NCBI GenBank assembly: GCA_947479935.1 | Contig: CANKBG010000007.1 | Location: forward strand, 29,264 to 93,263 | From: Comamonadaceae bacterium | GTDB lineage: Bacteria > Pseudomonadota > Gammaproteobacteria > Burkholderiales > Burkholderiaceae_C | Length of the DNA stretch: 64,000 bases | Direction: 5' to 3' | Shown: positions 52,746 through 61,843 of the stretch, piece after piece | Layout of the letters: the number at the start of each line of letters is the position of its first letter | Numbering within the stretch: position 1 is the stretch's first letter | Notes under the pieces: generated by a model | Told to the model about the DNA's origin: nothing | What the model saw: only the letters and a program-made list of their open reading frames with translations | The model's database searches: none | Made by a program: the position numbers and the translations under genes

Positions 52746-52838
52746 GGAATCGTGACCGAGTGGCCGAAGGTGCTCCCCTGCTAAGGGAGTATAGGGTGTA
52801 GAGCCTTATCGAGAGTTCGAATCTCTCCGATTCCGCCA
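52746..52838 (+). tRNA. tRNA-Ser(GCU)
   Basis: The acceptor GGAATCG pairs with CGATTCC and an encoded GCCA end follows. The anticodon stem-loop CTCCCCTGCTAAGGGAG gives anticodon GCT. A long variable arm (class II tRNA) and the T loop GAGAGTTCGAATCTCTC are present. It stands exactly at the border between core genes and the accessory island, a common integration site; no second copy of its 3' end was found in the window. Confidence 0.97.
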
Positions 52839-53190: not shown

Positions 53191-53248
53191 TTGGTCACAA
53201 TCAAGTATCTGGGTAAAATGAGTGACATAGAATCACTCATTTAACCCA
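53191..53248 (+). promoter_or_regulatory. dcm promoter with a 16-bp inverted-repeat operator
   Basis: TTGGTC (53191-53196) and TAAAAT (53214-53219) are 17 bases apart. Arms 53210-53225 (TGGGTAAAATGAGTGA) and 53233-53248 (TCACTCATTTAACCCA) pair at 15 of 16 positions with a 7-base loop, covering the -10 box and predicted transcription start. A repressor binding here would shut off dcm-vsr. Confidence 0.7.
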
Positions 53249-53263
53249 GCGAAAAAACAAGAT

Positions 53264-54613
53264 ATGACATCCGAAAAAGATGACCTTGAACTCATCAACA
53301 AACTTTTGGAAATTTACGACCAAAAGTACTTGGGTGAATTTTTGAATCAGGTCTCGCCAGGCCAGTGGTGCCGCGAAACGATAAACCGCTGGGTAAAGGG
53401 AAAAGCTTCTCCAAGGTTAAGTCACCGGGAGTTTGAAGCGTTGCAAGAACTTTTCCCAAAGCCCCCCTTGAGCCATCCAAACTATGATTTTGATTTTGTA
53501 GATTTGTTTGCTGGAATTGGCGGCATCAGACGGGGTTTTGAGCTGGCTGGTGGCCGTTGCGTTTTCACAAGTGAATGGAATAAATATGCAATCAAAACAT
53601 ACAAGGCCAATCACTACTCTGACCCAGATAAACATACATTCAATGAAGATATCAGGGCAGTGACACTCAGCGATAAGGATGACGTATCTGAAGCGGTTGT
53701 TGTTAAAAACATTAATTCACTCATTCCTGATCATGATGTTTTACTTGCAGGATTCCCATGTCAGCCATTCTCAATAGCGGGTGTATCCAAGAAAAACTCA
53801 TTGGGTAAGGCTCACGGTTTCGAATGTAAGACCCAAGGCACGCTGTTCTTTGATGTCGCAAAGATTATTGAAGTTAAGAGACCCGCAGCTTTTTTATTAG
53901 AAAACGTAAAGAATCTGAAAAGCCACGACAAGGGGAAAACATTTAAAGTAATTATGGAAACTTTAGACGAGCTTGGTTATTGGGTCGCCGATGTTGACTC
54001 TGATTCAAAAGCTGATCCAAAGGTCATTGATGCGCAAAATTTTGTGCCACAACATAGAGAACGCATCGCACTAGTTGGATTTAGAAAAGATCTCAATGTA
54101 CATGACGGATTTTCCCTGAAGGAAATAAGCAAGTTTTATCCGAAGGTTAAGCCGAAGTTAGGTGATATCTTAGATGCTGATTTTGATGAGAAATACATAC
54201 TTACACCCAGACTGTGGGAATACCTGTTTAATTATTCAATTAAGCACAAGGCCAAAGGCAATGGATTCGGGTATGGTTTGGTGGGTGAGCAAGATGTGAC
54301 TCGAACCCTCTCAGCCCGCTACTACAAGGATGGATCGGAAATCCTTATTGATCGTGGCTTTAACCCCGATAAAGATTTTTACAGCGTAAAAAATCAGAAG
54401 AACAGACCGCGCAGGCTAACCCCGCGCGAGTGCGCGAGACTGATGGGGTACGACGAGGCAGGTAAAGCAAACTTCAATATCCCTGTATCAGATATGCAGG
54501 CCTATAAACAGTTTGGAAACTCAGTGGTAGTTCCGGTTTTCGCTGCTGTAGCTAAGCTGATGAAGCCTCGGATCAAGCAAGCGATTGCAGTACGTAAAAA
54601 ACAGTCCAAATGA
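53264..54613 (+). CDS. dcm: DNA cytosine-5 methyltransferase, Dcm type
   Basis: 449 residues. C5-methylase motifs run in order: [38 protein letters not shown] (catalytic C166), [32 protein letters not shown], and [17 protein letters not shown] and [17 protein letters not shown]. Overall it follows remembered E. coli Dcm closely, including the N-terminal helical region (LLEIYD...LNQV...FPKPP) and the target-recognition part ([21 protein letters not shown]). CCWGG specificity is therefore likely but inferred. Overlaps vsr (ATGA). AT-richer than the core genes. Confidence 0.95.
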
Positions 54614-55074
54614 CCGATGTCCATTCACCTGCCGTTCGATCGAAGAACATGCAGGCGATTCGTTCAAAGAACACCCGTCCAGAAATCACTGTCCGGTCTC
54701 TGCTGCATGCCGCAGGTTTTCGATATCGGCTTCATGTTTCTGACCTCCCGGGAAAGCCGGATCTGGTCTTTCCTAAATATCGGGCCGTAATCATGGTGAA
54801 CGGATGTTTCTGGCATGGGCATGACTGCCAGTTTTTTAAACTACCTTCAACGCGAATTGATTTTTGGAAGCAGAAAATTGAAAAAAATCGGGCTAATGAT
54901 GAGAGGTCATCACTCGCCTTGAGGTCCGCAGAGTGGAGGATTGCAATAGTGTGGGAGTGCGCGTTGCGTAAAAAGAAAGCGGATAGTTTTGAAAATGTGA
55001 CGCAAAAACTGAGTGACTGGCTTAGATCTTTAGATGCCTCCATGGAGCTGCCAAAAACAGAACCGGTTCGTTAA
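54610..55074 (+). CDS. vsr: very short patch repair endonuclease
   Basis: 154 residues. [27 protein letters not shown], the catalytic D51 in GKPDLVFP, and H69/H71/C73 in [10 protein letters not shown] correspond to the numbered active-site and zinc residues of E. coli Vsr. It nicks at T:G mismatches formed by deamination of 5-methylcytosine in the methylase target. It overlaps dcm by 4 bases and is convergent with the restriction operon, 50 bp away. Confidence 0.97.
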
Positions 55075-55124: not shown

Positions 55125-55979
55125 TCAATCTAAATCGATTTTTTTAGAATTTACTAGTTGAGCCTTAAGCTCTTCAACTGAGAGTGGCGGATTTTTTCTA
55201 TGCATCATTGCGTGGCAATTACCGCACACGGGTACAAGATCGGTAACCGGGTCAACTCGATACGCTCCCCCCATGGAGGAAACGGGAACTCTGTGGTGAA
55301 CCTCAATGTAATCTTGACCTATTTGCCCATAGAAGGATCCAAAATCAAAACTGCAAACTTGGCAGGTTGGACCGTAATGTGAAATGCAGGCCGCCCGGTT
55401 TGCCGGACTTCGTTCGTATTTGTTGACAACAATTTGAATTTTCGCGCCCTCTGGCAGACCTGCTTCGAACCCCTGCATTACTTCGGTAACGTCTTCCACC
55501 TGGAGAAGTGAAAGCACTAGCCCAAAGCAAGTTGATGCAGTTTCTAAAGCGAGACTTTGATATTGTTCTTGCGAGGGCTTGCTGCTACCTAACCGCTTGT
55601 CACAGTCAAGCTCAAGTTTGGTCCAGTCTCCTCGAGGCAAGTCCCCGGGAGAGTCAATATGATTCCCGTTCACACTGATCGAAACTCGAAATCCATCGGC
55701 TACAGCTTTCTGCGCCAAAGTTGAAAATGTTGTCTTTGCTTCCTCATCCGCTTCTGCCATATGGCGCAGCAGACTTCTTGTGAAGGCATCAGCTTTGAAA
55801 CTGGCTTCTATCAGACGAGGCGTTCTTGCAAGAACGATGCCGAAACCATTTGGGTATTCAAGGTCGATGGGGCGAAGTACAACAAATGTTCCACCATCTA
55901 TTTCCTCGCTGCCACCTGAAACACCAAGGCCAAAACGCGTCTGAATTTTTTCAGCCAGTTCGCCCGCGTCTAGCATAGT
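55125..55979 (-). CDS. HNH endonuclease, McrA-like C-terminal domain
   Basis: About 284 residues. The C-terminal nuclease is complete: two zinc-type cysteine pairs (TCQVCSFDFG and VCGNCHAMMH) around YIEVHHRVPVSS and DLVPVCGNCHAMMHRKNP. The ~200-residue N-terminal part (FVVLRPIDLEYPNGFGIVLARTPRLIEASF) I do not recognise; it may bind partners or DNA. The start meets the preceding ATPase stop (TAATG; start near 55982). Last gene of the minus-strand operon, so it is probably the nuclease subunit of the restriction system. Confidence 0.88.
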   Translation of the reverse strand, partial: TMLDAGELAEKIQTRFGLGVSGGSEEIDGGTFVVLRPIDLEYPNGFGIVLARTPRLIEASFKADAFTRSLLRHMAEADEEAKTTFSTLAQKAVADGFRVSISVNGNHIDSPGDLPRGDWTKLELDCDKRLGSSKPSQEQYQSLALETASTCFGLVLSLLQVEDVTEVMQGFEAGLPEGAKIQIVVNKYERSPANRAACISHYGPTCQVCSFDFGSFYGQIGQDYIEVHHRVPVSSMGGAYRVDPVTDLVPVCGNCHAMMHRKNPPLSVEELKAQLVNSKKIDLD

Positions 55980-55981
55980 CA

Positions 55982-56650
55982 TTACAGTGCTCCAGCCTCC
56001 GGTGGATCGGGAAGATCTGCAACGAGCTTTTTAAGGTTTCTGGAGACCTCAATTCTGAATTCTTCAAAGGCATCTTTGTTTTCGTCGTTGACGTTATTTA
56101 ATTCCGCCTGAGCAAGTGCCCACAACATAAAGTCCAGAGCTTGAACGGCAACGCTGTCTCCCTTGCTCGGAAGATATGCCTTTGGATAAAAAGGGTGCCC
56201 AGTGTTTAAGGTTACACCTGCGCCACCGTTGATGAGTGCTGGTTCCCAAAGTACGCCGTTATCAAGCGTTCCGCTTGTTGAAATATGCATCAGGCTCGGT
56301 TCGTTGGTCGTAACGATCTTGAGCTTGGTGGTGGAGTGGCCGGAATTGTTTGTGATGCCTACTTCGCCACTCGCCGAATTCACGTCGGTTACTGTGGCAA
56401 CCTTCAAAGCCCCAACCTTTTGATGAATCGCATTTCCTGAGGCTGTATGCAACAGCACAGCGGAGCCAGTGATCGCACCAGCAGCCCCTTTTCTGTACCT
56501 CGTCTCCGCCTCACGGCGGGGGGCTGCGAGAAAAGTGTCCCGCAACCATTCGTATAGTTGTTCATTTAGCAGGATGCGCGACTTCTTGATATCTACCTGA
56601 AACGCATCATCGAGCTTGTGGTCGAATGACAACTCGACGCGAAGCAGCGA
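55982..56650 (-). CDS. GHKL ATPase, C-terminal part (out of frame with N-terminal part)
   Basis: The track shows an independent 216-residue ORF from TTG 56632, but its frame continues upstream as SLLRVELSFDHKLDDAF without a start, directly continuing the ATPase N-terminal ORF. As a stand-alone gene it has no ribosome site. The region is the transducer-like and C-terminal part of a MORC/MutL-type ATPase (FDHKLDDAFQVDIKKSRILL). It ends at the HNH start (TAATG). I regard it as the second half of one broken gene. Confidence 0.8.
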   Translation of the reverse strand, partial: SLLRVELSFDHKLDDAFQVDIKKSRILLNEQLYEWLRDTFLAAPRREAETRYRKGAAGAITGSAVLLHTASGNAIHQKVGALKVATVTDVNSASGEVGITNNSGHSTTKLKIVTTNEPSLMHISTSGTLDNGVLWEPALINGGAGVTLNTGHPFYPKAYLPSKGDSVAVQALDFMLWALAQAELNNVNDENKDAFEEFRIEVSRNLKKLVADLPDPPEAGAL

Positions 56651-57585
56651 AAGTGCGGTTCCTGTTTGTACATCCCCAACCAGTCCGGGCCATGAATAAG
56701 GCGGTTTTCACGGTAAACGTAAACACCTTGGCGTTCATTGGAAATTTTGGCTGCATTCCGGTTTTCAGTGGAAGAGAACTCTTCTTTTCTTGGAAGAATA
56801 AATGCACGAATAGAAAACGTGGCACTTTGTCCGTTGGGTAGCTGAACCGGAATGGTTTTGTCCACCGCCGGAGCACTCACCTCCGCGATACAGAAAGGAT
56901 CCCACGCACTGACAGGTGCGCCATTTAGCTTGATAGTCAGTGTCCTTGACCGAGCATCAGTGGGGTCTAGAAATCGTTGGTACACCGTAGCAATATGTTC
57001 CCTCAGGGAATCTTCCTGGCGTTTGAGAGCGTTTTTCAAGGGCTTGCCATCAGGTCTTGTGTAATCAGAAAGCAACCGGTCTACTTTTTCCCAAATAACA
57101 ACCGTTCCTGATTTCTCCTGTGCACTTTCATTTAGCAATTGAACTTCGTGAGGTGCTGCAGATGCCAGTTCGAGTCCCCAACTATTTGACTGGCCCAAAA
57201 AATCAAGGTCCCATGCAGCGCGCAGAGCAGCAGACTGTCCATCAGGACGTGAAACCAATGCTAGACGCTTGCAAAAAGCGGTTGACGCGGTTTTAAGGCC
57301 CAAACCGAATTTACCTAAACTGGCTGCATCCGCACGTCTCTTGGATCCGTATTTCATCGCGTTGATGAGACCATCTCTGTCCATGCCGCAACCATCATCT
57401 GCGACTGAAACTGAAATATTTCCAATAAAGTCCGCGCCAAAACGGACGTCCACATTGGAAGCGCCAGCTGCAATAGAGTTGTCGATAATGTCGGCAATCG
57501 CGGTATTGAATTCATATCCGGTATCACGCAGGCCTTCACTGATACGCGCTACGTCTGGTTGGACTTCAATAGTTTCAGTTGTCAT
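56593..57585 (-). CDS. GHKL (MORC/MutL-like) ATPase, N-terminal part, frameshifted
   Basis: From ATG 57585 (AAGGGG ribosome site) the Bergerat-fold motifs are clear: N box FNTAIADIIDNSIAAGASNV, G1 VADDGCGMDRDGLINAM and G2 LGKFGLGLKTASTAF. A transducer-type region with RENRLIHGPDWLGMY follows. Such ATPases clamp on DNA in MutL, MORC and some restriction systems. The reading frame breaks at ~56650 and the correct continuation is in 55982-56650. The track start 57606 is a TTG inside the upstream gene. Confidence 0.88.
   Translation of the reverse strand: MTTETIEVQPDVARISEGLRDTGYEFNTAIADIIDNSIAAGASNVDVRFGADFIGNISVSVADDGCGMDRDGLINAMKYGSKRRADAASLGKFGLGLKTASTAFCKRLALVSRPDGQSAALRAAWDLDFLGQSNSWGLELASAAPHEVQLLNESAQEKSGTVVIWEKVDRLLSDYTRPDGKPLKNALKRQEDSLREHIATVYQRFLDPTDARSRTLTIKLNGAPVSAWDPFCIAEVSAPAVDKTIPVQLPNGQSATFSIRAFILPRKEEFSSTENRNAAKISNERQGVYVYRENRLIHGPDWLGMYKQEPHFRCFASSCHSTTSSMMRFR
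56648..56653 (-). other. one-base frameshift in the GHKL ATPase gene
   Basis: Minus-strand reading ...GAA CCG CAC TTT | CGC TGC gives a stop after ~20 odd residues (FRCFASSCHSTTSS). Adding one T to the TTT run gives ...EPHF-SLLRVELSFDHKLDD, which joins both halves into a 541-residue protein. It is a real mutation, a sequencing error in a homopolymer, or recoding; no classical slippery heptamer is present. Confidence 0.85.
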
Positions 57586-57602
57586 TTTTGTTGCCCCTTG
57601 GT

Positions 57603-58028
57603 TCAAGAATTAATAATTTTCCAGCCGCCGCTGAGTACCAATACACCGTCGTCGTTGAGCTTTGCCGAAGTGCTATTTGCACGAACGTGATCGACGAAAA
57701 TTGATCCGTTTTCATCTTTTGAAAATGTGAGATCGTCACCGACTTTTGCATCGATAGCCCGTAAATACTTGGTCATGCAAGTGAGGCGGTATTCGTTTCG
57801 GGTCCCGCCGAAAAGCGCATTGTTGTAATAGATGAAGTTAAATTCCCATTTCGAGCCGTCGGCAAGTTCGCGGACCAACAAAGTCATTCTGGGGTTTTTG
57901 ATTGCAGCATTCAAATCAGGGAAAAATGACAGAATGTCTTTCGCTTTTGGTACCAGAATTCCCGCTTGATGTGCACCGTTGATGCCAATGTCATTGGCAC
58001 TCAGTTTTTTTGAAATTGTTGTCGTCAT
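57603..58028 (-). CDS. stand-alone EcoRII-N (B3-like) DNA-binding domain protein
   Basis: 141 residues. KKLSANDIGINGAHQAGILVPK and FNFIYYNNALFGGTRNEYRLT closely follow remembered blocks of the EcoRII N-terminal effector domain (LSANDTGATGGHQ...YYN-A-FG-TRNE-R), which binds CCWGG; the TRNExR segment lies in its DNA-contacting loop. In EcoRII this domain is joined to a PD-(D/E)XK nuclease; here no nuclease is attached. It overlaps the SNF2 stop (ATGA), so the two subunits are probably made together. Confidence 0.85.
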   Translation of the reverse strand: MTTTISKKLSANDIGINGAHQAGILVPKAKDILSFFPDLNAAIKNPRMTLLVRELADGSKWEFNFIYYNNALFGGTRNEYRLTCMTKYLRAIDAKVGDDLTFSKDENGSIFVDHVRANSTSAKLNDDGVLVLSGGWKIINS

Positions 58029-59932
58029 TTTTCGTTTTCCTGAAATTTTGACAGTGGTGAAATTTGTAGGGCTCTGACTATTATTGATGCATCAATTTCA
58101 CCATCGTGACCAACAACAGCCTCTGTCGCCAGGCCCCGTTTGAATTGGGCGCGATCCAGCATGACCTCTTCAACGCTGTCCGCGTAATACAGGTGGTGAA
58201 TTGTCACGGGTAGTTTTTGCTTACGACGGTATGCTCTTGCCGACGCCTGATCCGTGAGAGCCGGATTCCATTCCGGGTTGTAATGAATGACGTGGTTGGC
58301 CGCTGTAATGTTTAAGCCTGCGCCTGCCGCCTTTGGATTCAAGAACAACGCTCCAGATCCGTTGAACTCATAAAACTGATCAACAGTTGGCTGCCTCTCG
58401 GTAACAGGCACTCGTCCATCAATAAACCTGAAAAATCCGGCAGGCCAACGCTGAGGGATGTCTCGCATGAACAGATCGGCCATTCCCTGGTAGGTTGTAA
58501 ACACAAGAGCTTTTTGGTTGGACTCAAAAATCTCTGTGAGGAGTTCTATAAGTCGAATGTACTTGTCTACATCAAGGGATGGATTGCCTAGCGCCTTACT
58601 GACCAGACTTGGATGTGTGCAAAACATTCGCAGTCGCCCGGTCGCAACCATGCCTGCAGCAGGTCCGTATTCAGCCAACGTACTCAGTCGTAGCGATTCA
58701 TAGGCATCAGCAAGTGAAGGACTCATCGTAATTGCCTGAGGCACTTCGATCTTCTCAGGCAGATCCTTTGCAACGTCCCTGACTTTTCGCCTTAAAAGAA
58801 TTGGTGAAACAATCGGACTTAGCCGACTTGCGTCATTCAGATCATCAGTGAAACTTGCCCGGAACTCGCTCACCGATCCGAGCAATCCTGGAAGCGCAAA
58901 ATCTGCAAGGGACCAAAGATCGTCAAGTCGGTTTTCAACAGGGGTCCCCGTCACAGCTAAAGAGACTCGGCGGGGAAGTCTCTTGACAGCTTTTGTTCTT
59001 TGCGCATCCGGATTTTTTATCGCCTGTGCCTCATCAAGCACCAATAAGTTCCATTCGACTGATCCCAGCAGAGGCTCATCCCGAATTGCTGTATCAAACG
59101 AAGTCACTACAACGTCAAACGGCGTCAGTCGCTCTGCAATACCGGCTCTTCCCGGTCCTGCATGAACGTGTACGCTGAGTGAGGGGGCGAACTGTGCAAT
59201 TTCACGCCTCCAGTTTTCAACGATAGTAGCTGGCGCAACTACCAGTGAAGGCGTACAGCCCCGGTTTGTTTCAGATAGTAGCAATGCGATGACTTGCAGT
59301 GTTTTTCCAAGTCCCATTTCATCGGCAAGAATGCAGCCAATCTCTTGCTGAGCAATCACTTGCAAAAAACCGACGCCGTCAACTTGGTACGGGTAAAGCT
59401 GGGCATTAAGGCCTTGAATCTCACCGATCCCGCCACCTGCAGCAGATGCAACATCGGAAGCAATAACTACAGATTCATCAATTAGTTTTGCAGGTGCATC
59501 TTTTGTACTTCGTAACTCGATTAATTTGCCGAATGAAAGCGAGCCCCCCTCAACCACACCACGGGCAGTTAACCAGTCTTTTGCAGATTGGATTGCATCT
59601 GTACTAACGGGGTACCATTTGCTACCAATAATTATTTGATCGTAGCCAACGGGCAAATCGCAGTACTCATTGTCTGTCCAGATACCAACATTGACAATGA
59701 TCGAACTGGGAGTGACGTTGCTAATTCTGATGGCTGGTTCTGCCGGAAACCGAGAAAAAATCAAATCTGGGACCACAGATGTCAAAGGTCGATCAAGTTG
59801 CTGCCCGTGAAATTCTTTTGTGTCGGAGAAAATAGCTGAGTAAACGTCTAACGCACTTGGGAAAACGGTCGCACCCATGTGATCTTTTATTGAGATCCGA
59901 TCGCCTTCCAAAAACCAATGCGCCTTATTCAT
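58025..59932 (-). CDS. SNF2-family DNA translocase/helicase
   Basis: 635 residues. The first ~170 residues are unrecognised. Then come Walker A CILADEMGLGKTLQVIALLL, motif Ia VVAPATIVENWRREI, DEAQ box LLVLDEAQAIKN, motif III LAVTGTPVENRLDDLW, and motifs V-VI LNPKAAGAGLNITAANHVIHY and DQASARAYRRKQ. SWI2/SNF2 ATPases move along duplex DNA without unwinding it. It begins 2 bp after the WYL gene and overlaps the EcoRII-N gene, so it is the motor of this system. Confidence 0.95.
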   Translation of the reverse strand: MNKAHWFLEGDRISIKDHMGATVFPSALDVYSAIFSDTKEFHGQQLDRPLTSVVPDLIFSRFPAEPAIRISNVTPSSIIVNVGIWTDNEYCDLPVGYDQIIIGSKWYPVSTDAIQSAKDWLTARGVVEGGSLSFGKLIELRSTKDAPAKLIDESVVIASDVASAAGGGIGEIQGLNAQLYPYQVDGVGFLQVIAQQEIGCILADEMGLGKTLQVIALLLSETNRGCTPSLVVAPATIVENWRREIAQFAPSLSVHVHAGPGRAGIAERLTPFDVVVTSFDTAIRDEPLLGSVEWNLLVLDEAQAIKNPDAQRTKAVKRLPRRVSLAVTGTPVENRLDDLWSLADFALPGLLGSVSEFRASFTDDLNDASRLSPIVSPILLRRKVRDVAKDLPEKIEVPQAITMSPSLADAYESLRLSTLAEYGPAAGMVATGRLRMFCTHPSLVSKALGNPSLDVDKYIRLIELLTEIFESNQKALVFTTYQGMADLFMRDIPQRWPAGFFRFIDGRVPVTERQPTVDQFYEFNGSGALFLNPKAAGAGLNITAANHVIHYNPEWNPALTDQASARAYRRKQKLPVTIHHLYYADSVEEVMLDRAQFKRGLATEAVVGHDGEIDASIIVRALQISPLSKFQENEK

Positions 59933-59934
59933 TT

Positions 59935-60855
59935 TCAGCCTTGCGCGGTTTGTGAAGTTGCTGTCACTGAGTTGTATCCCGGCGCAAGCGCTGCGCTCTC
60001 AACGCCATAAAGTGTTTGCGGGTTGTTCAGCCATAAATGATGCTCTTTTGGATCAAGGCTGTGTTCAGGTGAGCAATCCACTGACCATCGCCGCAGTGCA
60101 TATCCAACCAATGGAGCTCGCATGTCAAGCGCCAGCATGCCGTTGTGCATCATGAAGTCGGCCTCGATCGCCTTTGGGTGGGCAATGCCTGGGTGGGGCA
60201 CTAGCTCGATATGGACCAGTCGTGCCCACTGCACATCTGACTCAATTTGTTCTTCGACTGGGATGGGCTGCTCAATGGCCTTGGCTTTGACGATTCGTGT
60301 CAATGAAAAGTCGGCAAAGCGGCCTCGCTCACGGTCATATGCGCGCAAATGCCAACGTAGGCCAGTGTCGGCCAAGGCTAGGGGGCACAGCGTCTTTGTT
60401 GAGGCTCCAGAGGTCAAAGACAGGTAATTGACCTTGACCTGGCGTCTTCCGGCAATGGCGCGAGTGAGCGTCGCCAGTGTTTCGATTTCGGGTTTAACCA
60501 GGTCGCTGGCGCTTTCACAGGGGACAGAGCGCTTGAGCTTTTGGTCCATGTTGTCGCCAAAGCCTGCTCGGAACCAGGTGAGCACACGCTCTGCTGAGTG
60601 TTCAAACAAGGGTGTGAAGCGGTCGGTCGTTGCGTACTTGCGTTGACCGGCGTCGTAGAAGAGGTTGATTGGTGCCAGGCGACGGTAGGTGCTTAGGTCG
60701 CGTGCTGAAGCAGCAGGCTTGACCCCAAAGCGTCTCTCAATATCCGCGCGGGTTAGATCGCCACAGAAGAAAGCTTTGACTTCAATGTAGAAAAGTCGCT
60801 CTCTTTGCGTCTGCGTCAGGTCGTCAAGTGCAGCAGCGACACGTTTGTTGACCAC
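59935..60855 (-). CDS. WYL-domain transcriptional regulator, first gene of the restriction operon
   Basis: 306 residues from GTG 60855, with GGAGA ahead. An N-terminal winged-helix region (LTRADIERRFGVKPAASARDLSTYR) precedes a WYL domain (RRQVKVNYLSLTSG, GLRWHLRAYDRERGRFADFSLTRI). Proteins of this layout (BrxR, CapW) are known repressors of defence operons. As first gene in the operon, immediately before SNF2, it most likely controls this operon, perhaps through the operator-like sequence at 60907. Confidence 0.9.
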   Translation of the reverse strand: MVNKRVAAALDDLTQTQRERLFYIEVKAFFCGDLTRADIERRFGVKPAASARDLSTYRRLAPINLFYDAGQRKYATTDRFTPLFEHSAERVLTWFRAGFGDNMDQKLKRSVPCESASDLVKPEIETLATLTRAIAGRRQVKVNYLSLTSGASTKTLCPLALADTGLRWHLRAYDRERGRFADFSLTRIVKAKAIEQPIPVEEQIESDVQWARLVHIELVPHPGIAHPKAIEADFMMHNGMLALDMRAPLVGYALRRWSVDCSPEHSLDPKEHHLWLNNPQTLYGVESAALAPGYNSVTATSQTAQG

Positions 60856-60906
60856 GGATTTGTCTCCACCTTATTTGCGAATGTTCCACTCTAGCATATT
60901 CAATGA

Positions 60907-60930
60907 CTGCACTTAATCATTTTGATGCAG
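60907..60930. promoter_or_regulatory. possible WYL-regulator operator in the divergent spacer
   Basis: CTGCA...TGCAG (outer arms 60907-60911 and 60926-60930) enclose ATCA-TTT-TGAT, an imperfect dyad in the 160-bp spacer between the WYL gene and the plus-strand gene at 61017. Placement fits an operator; identity is inference. Confidence 0.35.
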
Positions 60931-61016
60931 ATAGGCGTCATTGGTGCTAGAATTTTTTGAACGAAAAGGTCGTACCCGGTCGCTTGGACCGAAATCATCA
61001 CTTTTAGGAGATGAAC

Positions 61017-61307
61017 ATGTCTTTTTGGCAAATCTTGGGGCGATTCGCTGTCTCCGATTCAGGGGAGACTTTGCAAAAAGTCTCGGATACCACCAGCGTA
61101 TCGTCCGACGGCACGACCTACACAAAGATGGGCTCAACCACCTTTGGGTCAGATGGGTCTGTTTTCACTCAGATGGGAAGCTTCAGCACTGACGGCAGCA
61201 CCCGCATGGGCAGCACGGCGACTGGCCTTGGTGCCGTGTTCAACAACTCGAGCGACGACTTTGGGATCGGTTCCAAAAAATCCAGAAATGACTTGGACGA
61301 TTTTTAA
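61017..61307 (+). CDS. small Gly/Ser/Thr repeat protein of unknown function
   Basis: 96 residues from ATG 61017, chosen because AGGAG is six bases upstream (ATG 61011 touches it). The protein consists of about three degenerate repeats: SSDGTTYTKMGSTTFG, SDGSVFTQMGSFST and DGSTRMGSTATG, i.e. a DGS/T-X3-5-MGS pattern. It ends in an acidic, charged tail. No signal peptide or membrane segment. I do not recognise the family. It lies 14 bp before a macrodomain gene, on the same strand. Confidence 0.7.
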   Translation: MSFWQILGRFAVSDSGETLQKVSDTTSVSSDGTTYTKMGSTTFGSDGSVFTQMGSFSTDGSTRMGSTATGLGAVFNNSSDDFGIGSKKSRNDLDDF

Positions 61308-61321
61308 GGTACTTAAACTTC

Positions 61322-61843
61322 ATGCAAATTGAAATCGTCATCGGCAACATCGTCCAGCAACCGGATGTCGATGCCCTAGTTAATTCGGCCAACGCAAATC
61401 TTCGCTTTGGATCAGGAGTCGCCGGTGCCATTCATACTGCCGCCGGGCCAGAACTCGAGCAGTATTGCCGTCGCCATTCACCAATTGCGCTGGGTGAAGC
61501 CGTTGTAACCCCGGGCTTTGAACTTCCAAACCCTTATGTGATTCACGCGAGGGCGGCAAGTTTCATCAATGACGATCATCCTGAGAAATACCTCGACCTT
61601 GCCGTTGCTCAGGCTCTCCGAGTAGCCAAAGAAGCAGGGATCAAATCAATGGCCATGCCCGCGATCGGAACTGGCGTTTTCAAGTTCCCACCAGAGTTGT
61701 CTGCTGAAATCATCATTAACGGCCTAGTGAGTCGAAGTGAGGACTACCCAGAGATCCATTTGGTACGGATTTGCGTTGGCACGCAAGAAATGAAGGCCGT
61801 TTTCGCTTCTACTTTGGCCGCAAAAATATCTTCTCCTGCATAG
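61322..61843 (+). CDS. macrodomain protein (ADP-ribose binding/hydrolase)
   Basis: 173 residues. Macrodomain motifs are clear: IEIVIGNIVQQPDVDALVNSANANLRFGSGVAGAIHTAAG and the phosphate loop MAMPAIGTGVFKFPPE. It would bind or hydrolyse ADP-ribose or derivatives in the cytoplasm. VNSANANLRFGSGVA is close to MacroD-type enzymes. Paired with the repeat protein upstream; a link to ADP-ribosylation-based defence is possible but unproved. Confidence 0.92.
   Translation: MQIEIVIGNIVQQPDVDALVNSANANLRFGSGVAGAIHTAAGPELEQYCRRHSPIALGEAVVTPGFELPNPYVIHARAASFINDDHPEKYLDLAVAQALRVAKEAGIKSMAMPAIGTGVFKFPPELSAEIIINGLVSRSEDYPEIHLVRICVGTQEMKAVFASTLAAKISSPA

Follow-up and report, generated by a model that had tools for sequence, protein, structure and literature searches.

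The 41-bp dyad in front of dcm in the analysed window (the whole stretch of 64,000 nucleotides) is very probably the autogenous operator of the M.EcoRII-type methylase that this gene encodes, and would be bound by the methylase's own predicted N-terminal helix-turn-helix (HTH) domain. This reading draws on sequence comparison and on analogy with M.EcoRII.

The dyad and promoter in front of dcm

The dcm gene (53264..54613, + strand) encodes a 449-aa EcoRII-type C5-cytosine methyltransferase with the domains PF00145 and PF18284 (E-values 1.7e-79 and 3.2e-23) and with 3me5 as the closest solved structure. The methylase is 63–65% identical to plasmid EcoRII-like methylases, and CCWGG as its methylation target fits the stand-alone EcoRII-N domain encoded in the facing operon. 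The vsr gene (54610..55074, + strand, PF03852) overlaps the dcm stop codon and is presumably co-transcribed with dcm. A tRNA-Ser(GCT) gene (52746-52838) lies just upstream of the dcm-vsr locus and is a possible insertion point; no island-boundary repeat of the tRNA 3' end was found within the window.

The dyad spans 53209..53249 and ends 14 nt before the dcm ATG (53264), and its 17-nt arms are complementary at 16 of 17 positions across a 7-nt gap. The left half-site CTGGGTAAAATGAGTGA (53209..53225, + strand) contains an outer box, GGGT, and an inner box, GTGA, and the right half-site TCACTCATTTAACCCAG (53233..53249, + strand) is its inverted copy. The centre, CATAGAA (53226..53232, + strand), is without the extended −10 element TGATAnnnT that is usual in relatives. 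A possible −35 hexamer, TTGGTC (53191..53196, + strand), recognised by a consensus match only (3/6), is separated by a 17-nt spacer from a possible −10 hexamer, TAAAAT (53214..53219, + strand), which lies within the left half-site and is assigned by sequence; L059, the closest relative, has GGGTAAAATG too. The proposed −10 and the probable start point are both under the dyad. The original prediction of a TTGGTC-N17-TAAAAT promoter whose −10 box is covered by a near-perfect palindrome is thus borne out, with arms of 17 nt rather than 16. An alternative −10 hexamer, TAGAAT (53228..53233, + strand), is located at the dyad centre, at a position similar to the central −10 of the relatives, and either of the two hexamers may be the true −10 of dcm.

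Nowhere else in the 64-kb window do 17-nt arms pair at 16 or more positions with a gap of 0–20 nt. The window site matches the family consensus at 32/34 positions, while the highest score was 22/34 both among 1.17 million non-operator positions of the related loci and among 2000 shuffled promoters; the dyad is therefore beyond chance. As the original prediction also noted, the arms are free of CCWGG: none occurs inside the dyad, and the nearest one, at 53357, is within dcm.

The same operator across relatives

A methylase-based scan of genome contigs yielded 54 related loci, and their upstream regions contain the same element, with the same arms and the same 7-nt gap (consensus CTGGGTCAAATGAGTGA-N7-TCACTCATTTGACCCAG). 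In beta- and gammaproteobacteria, the operator lies directly in front of EcoRII-type methylase genes. The original prediction named a search for the same dyad at other dcm-vsr loci as a check; the dyad is found before EcoRII-type methylases in many genera. There is one operator per locus, and in most of them 9–17 nt separate its end from the start codon. In the enterobacterial relatives, it is directly followed by GGAGG and by an upstream start codon, which is the true start of a longer M.EcoRII-type protein. Most operators score 23–33/34; the weakest accepted ones, in L039 and L010, score 21 each, overlap the background, and were taken for their position and symmetry. Loci obtained once the consensus had been fixed agree with it: L059 (83% identity) scores 30/34, L057, from the same order, scores 29/34, and most other loci of the viral collection score 28–29/34.

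The operator is present whatever the partner of the methylase, be it an EcoRII-like nuclease, Vsr alone, an operon of the window type, or none found. It is matched by 461 plasmid records, of which 440 are typed as conjugative, and in the two records inspected it lies directly before an EcoRII-like methylase gene with a convergent type II nuclease gene. When 399 genomes from the order and 369 from the class were sampled for PF18284, only two new loci came to light; the methylase gene is sporadic.

Three other interpretations of these sites were rejected. A regulon is contradicted by the genome (2.79 Mb), which contains no second site at up to 3 mismatches, and by the lack of a convincing second copy in any related locus. 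L054, a candidate for a lone N-terminal regulator, is a broken methylase remnant (L054:2680-2950, 92% identical to residues 1–86 of the window methylase) from which the operator is gone. L089, which has a perfect dyad and no methylase, is no evidence for a free-standing operator, since this viral contig ends 13 nt past the dyad, where the methylase would begin.

The methylase helix and the owner of the operator

The presence of the operator follows a motif in the methylase itself. Among 54 distinct proteins, the operator accompanies 44 of the 46 methylases with an RExxNR helix and none of the 8 without it (Fisher p 4e-8, a descriptive value since the sequences are related). On the tree, the label needs 3 changes, versus a mean of 9.4 in shuffles. 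The two RExxNR exceptions are L079, whose site has a gap of 10 nt, and L040, whose dyad has diverged. In the window, the N-terminal DNA_meth_N domain (PF18284, residues 9–63, 53288..53452, + strand) has a predicted four-helix HTH fold, and the AlphaFold2 model of this domain (pLDDT 77) places RETINRWV, the predicted recognition helix (residues 37–44, 53372..53395, + strand), as the third of four helices. The RExxNR motif sits in this helix; Arg37, Glu38, and Arg42 are invariant and Asn41 is nearly so. The best Foldseek match of the domain is Shigella Dcm (3me5, probability 1.00). Matches to its HTH neighbours, the P22 c2 repressor and C.Csp231I, are weak (E-values from 0.46 upwards). HTH_3 was found in 8 of 29 members, also weakly (E at best 0.007).

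The solitary Dcm of E. coli K-12 (L056) keeps the domain, and its helix region reads SAAILKRA, without RExxNR; the upstream region of its gene scores at background and has no operator. Since this Dcm branches inside the operator-bearing clade (96/83 support), it has probably lost both the helix motif and the operator, which suggests that self-repression was dropped in the solitary enzyme. L086, with neither motif nor operator, is a similar case.

M.EcoRII represses its own gene and leaves the nuclease gene unaffected (PMC3978073, PMC12707154), and methylases of this sort are described as autorepressors that use an N-terminal HTH on a promoter-overlapping operator (review PMC3874152). By analogy, the predicted N-terminal HTH domain of the window methylase, with its helix RETINRWV, would bind the 41-bp dyad over the dcm promoter and block RNA polymerase. 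When the methylase is scarce, or when many unmethylated sites occupy it, dcm and probably vsr would be freely transcribed. Early after entry into a cell, unmethylated sites would occupy the enzyme and dcm-vsr would be expressed; once the sites are methylated, free enzyme would accumulate and shut its own promoter. We infer binding, repression, and stoichiometry at the window locus, and the titration of the methylase by its substrate sites is extrapolated from the published M.EcoRII work.

The original prediction named two candidate repressors, the methylase's own N-terminal region and the WYL protein encoded by the facing operon. The former is strongly supported by the way the operator follows the N-terminal HTH motif across genera and whatever the partner genes, and by the published autorepression of M.EcoRII; the latter is disfavoured. 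The facing operon (55125-60855, − strand) is convergent with dcm and encodes the WYL regulator (59935..60855, − strand, PF13280), an SNF2 helicase, a stand-alone EcoRII-N protein (PF09217), an MzaB-like GHKL ATPase, an unknown 216-aa protein, and an HNH protein. It resembles the SNF2-type MORC restriction operons (PMC2292703), and its CCWGG-reading domain is detached from the nuclease. Past the point where the WYL operon starts, 61322-61843 encodes a protein that, by its sequence, looks like a macrodomain (VNSANANLRFGSGVAGAIH). The same gene set without a detected WYL gene is found in L001, L039, L040, and L041; among the loci sharing this facing operon, L001 is the nearest, and its contig stops before the position of the WYL gene.

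Repression of dcm by the WYL protein, which would coordinate the methylase with the nuclease operon, has points in its favour: the WYL gene starts about 7.6 kb from the dyad, in the window, and in defence loci, BrxR-type WYL proteins bind pseudo-palindromic sites that cover promoters (PMC9122589). However, the operator follows the methylase HTH motif instead, and tblastn at 1e-4 detected no relative of the window WYL protein near the other operator-bearing loci, a threshold at which remote WYL proteins could be missed. The WYL promoter is also without a copy of the dyad (60800-61050, best score 17/34, a background value). While BrxR/CapW-type repressors resemble the window in that a palindrome covers a promoter within a defence locus, the published BrxR site is located at the regulator's own promoter and consists of 10-bp half-sites 5 nt apart (PMC9122589), unlike the 41-bp dyad. 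We consider binding of the dyad by the WYL protein very unlikely. The accompanying notion of a dyad that sets the relative timing of methylase and nuclease expression is only partly apt, since no operator copy is found near the promoter of the facing operon and the EcoRII nuclease gene is unaffected by its methylase.

Nothing specific speaks for a different host repressor, unlinked to the locus, or for a palindrome of a mobile element as the source of the dyad. Each locus has a single copy, in every case in front of the methylase, and the hosts belong to many bacterial families; plasmids carry it as well. Since a host factor would stay behind when the gene moves and a mobile element would recur, this origin is highly improbable.

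The bases that are conserved within the operator also bear on what recognizes it. In each half-site, conservation across 42 distinct operators peaks at GGG and GTGA, which lie about one helical turn apart. Because of these two boxes per half, two dimers or an extended contact on the operator seem likely. At 41 bp and with two boxes to each half-site, the operator is long for a single HTH dimer, a point of stoichiometry that counts against autorepression by the methylase. The half-sites mispair at positions 8, 9, and 13 in 18–32 of 41 distinct operators while the GGG and GTGA boxes are nearly invariant, and this conservation of sequence, not just of pairing, indicates a protein site rather than an RNA hairpin. 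A dcm leader hairpin that controls translation or termination is scarcely credible: the 16/17 pairing and the adjoining ribosome-binding region in relatives would suit it, but a transcript from either candidate promoter would start inside the dyad and would not contain both arms, no T-run follows the dyad, and no Rfam family scores above threshold.

The centre of the operator begins with TA in 36 of the 42 distinct operators and reads TAnnnT in 30. Together with TG at positions 15–16, TA at 18–19 and T at 23 give TGATAnnnT in most relatives, which is likely an extended −10 at the dyad centre. The window and L059 have no TGATAnnnT and carry TAAAAT in the left arm instead. At L041:9924-9964, the outer GGGACA/TGTCCC boxes are kept at the same spacing and the inner boxes are not, and the N-terminal HTH of the methylase is different; this site is possibly an operator with altered inner specificity.

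Known systems, the LexA-like box, and wider meaning

Autogenous control of M.EcoRII was reportedly described by Som and Friedman in 1993 and 1994 (cited in PMC3978073, PMC3874152, PMC12707154). M.EcoRII is homologous to the window methylase and has the same N-terminal domain and RExxNR helix, and the operator sequence of the window recurs in enterobacterial loci that combine an M.EcoRII-like methylase with an EcoRII-like nuclease (e.g. L022-L034). In both systems, the site lies over the promoter and is free of CCWGG, and the restriction genes are convergent and without their own copy. The M.EcoRII footprint reportedly protects a region of 47–49 bp, and the 41-bp dyad is probably the same site. 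The window differs in that its partner is the facing operon (HNH to WYL) rather than R.EcoRII, and in that vsr follows dcm. It also has no LexA-like box, and its probable −10 is shifted.

M.SsoII and M.Ecl18kI are C5 methylases with an N-terminal HTH, which binds an inverted repeat and represses the methylase's own gene (PMC3978073, PMC3874152). Their site lies between divergent methylase and restriction genes, and its occupation favours the restriction gene by promoter competition, whereas the restriction-side genes of the window are convergent. C proteins such as C.Csp231I control restriction-modification genes as HTH proteins on symmetric boxes; they are separate small regulators, while the predicted HTH of the window is part of the methylase. 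Autorepression of the M.EcoRII type is already published, and dcm of the window would add another case. New are the base-resolved GGGT/GTGA boxes, the likely extended −10 at the centre in most relatives, the LexA-like box in many relatives, and the apparent joint loss of helix motif and operator in E. coli Dcm.

A LexA-like box, CTG-N10-CAG, is located upstream of the operator in many relatives (L035, L019, L012, L015, L011, L007, and most enterobacterial loci; e.g. CTGTTTAAATATCCAG and CTGTACACATATACAG), several of which have the perfect core CTGT-N8-ACAG. The box lies 12–23 bp upstream of the operator, mostly 12–15 bp before the dyad, and hence at a nearly fixed distance, and perfect cores number only 24 in 1.17 Mb. 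No such box is found at the window operator. Its position in the relatives suggests an SOS input to EcoRII-type methylases, and a limited open-literature search found no report of such an input.

The comparison shows to which of the two candidate regulators the operator most likely belongs, and it extends the autorepression of M.EcoRII, a single-plasmid observation, to a clade. The base-resolved operator and the candidate recognition helix are direct targets for mutation. We tentatively raise the possibility, doubtful at present, that the single, nearly unchanged operator shared by the M.EcoRII clade leads to cross-repression between elements and that, combined with the LexA-like box, it makes expression respond to free methylase and DNA damage. 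If so, any EcoRII-family element that enters a cell would have its methylase gene silenced by the methylase of an element already there, even between elements as different as the chromosomal locus of the window and enterobacterial conjugative plasmids, and in relatives with the LexA-like box, DNA damage as well as free methylase would govern the methylase genes.
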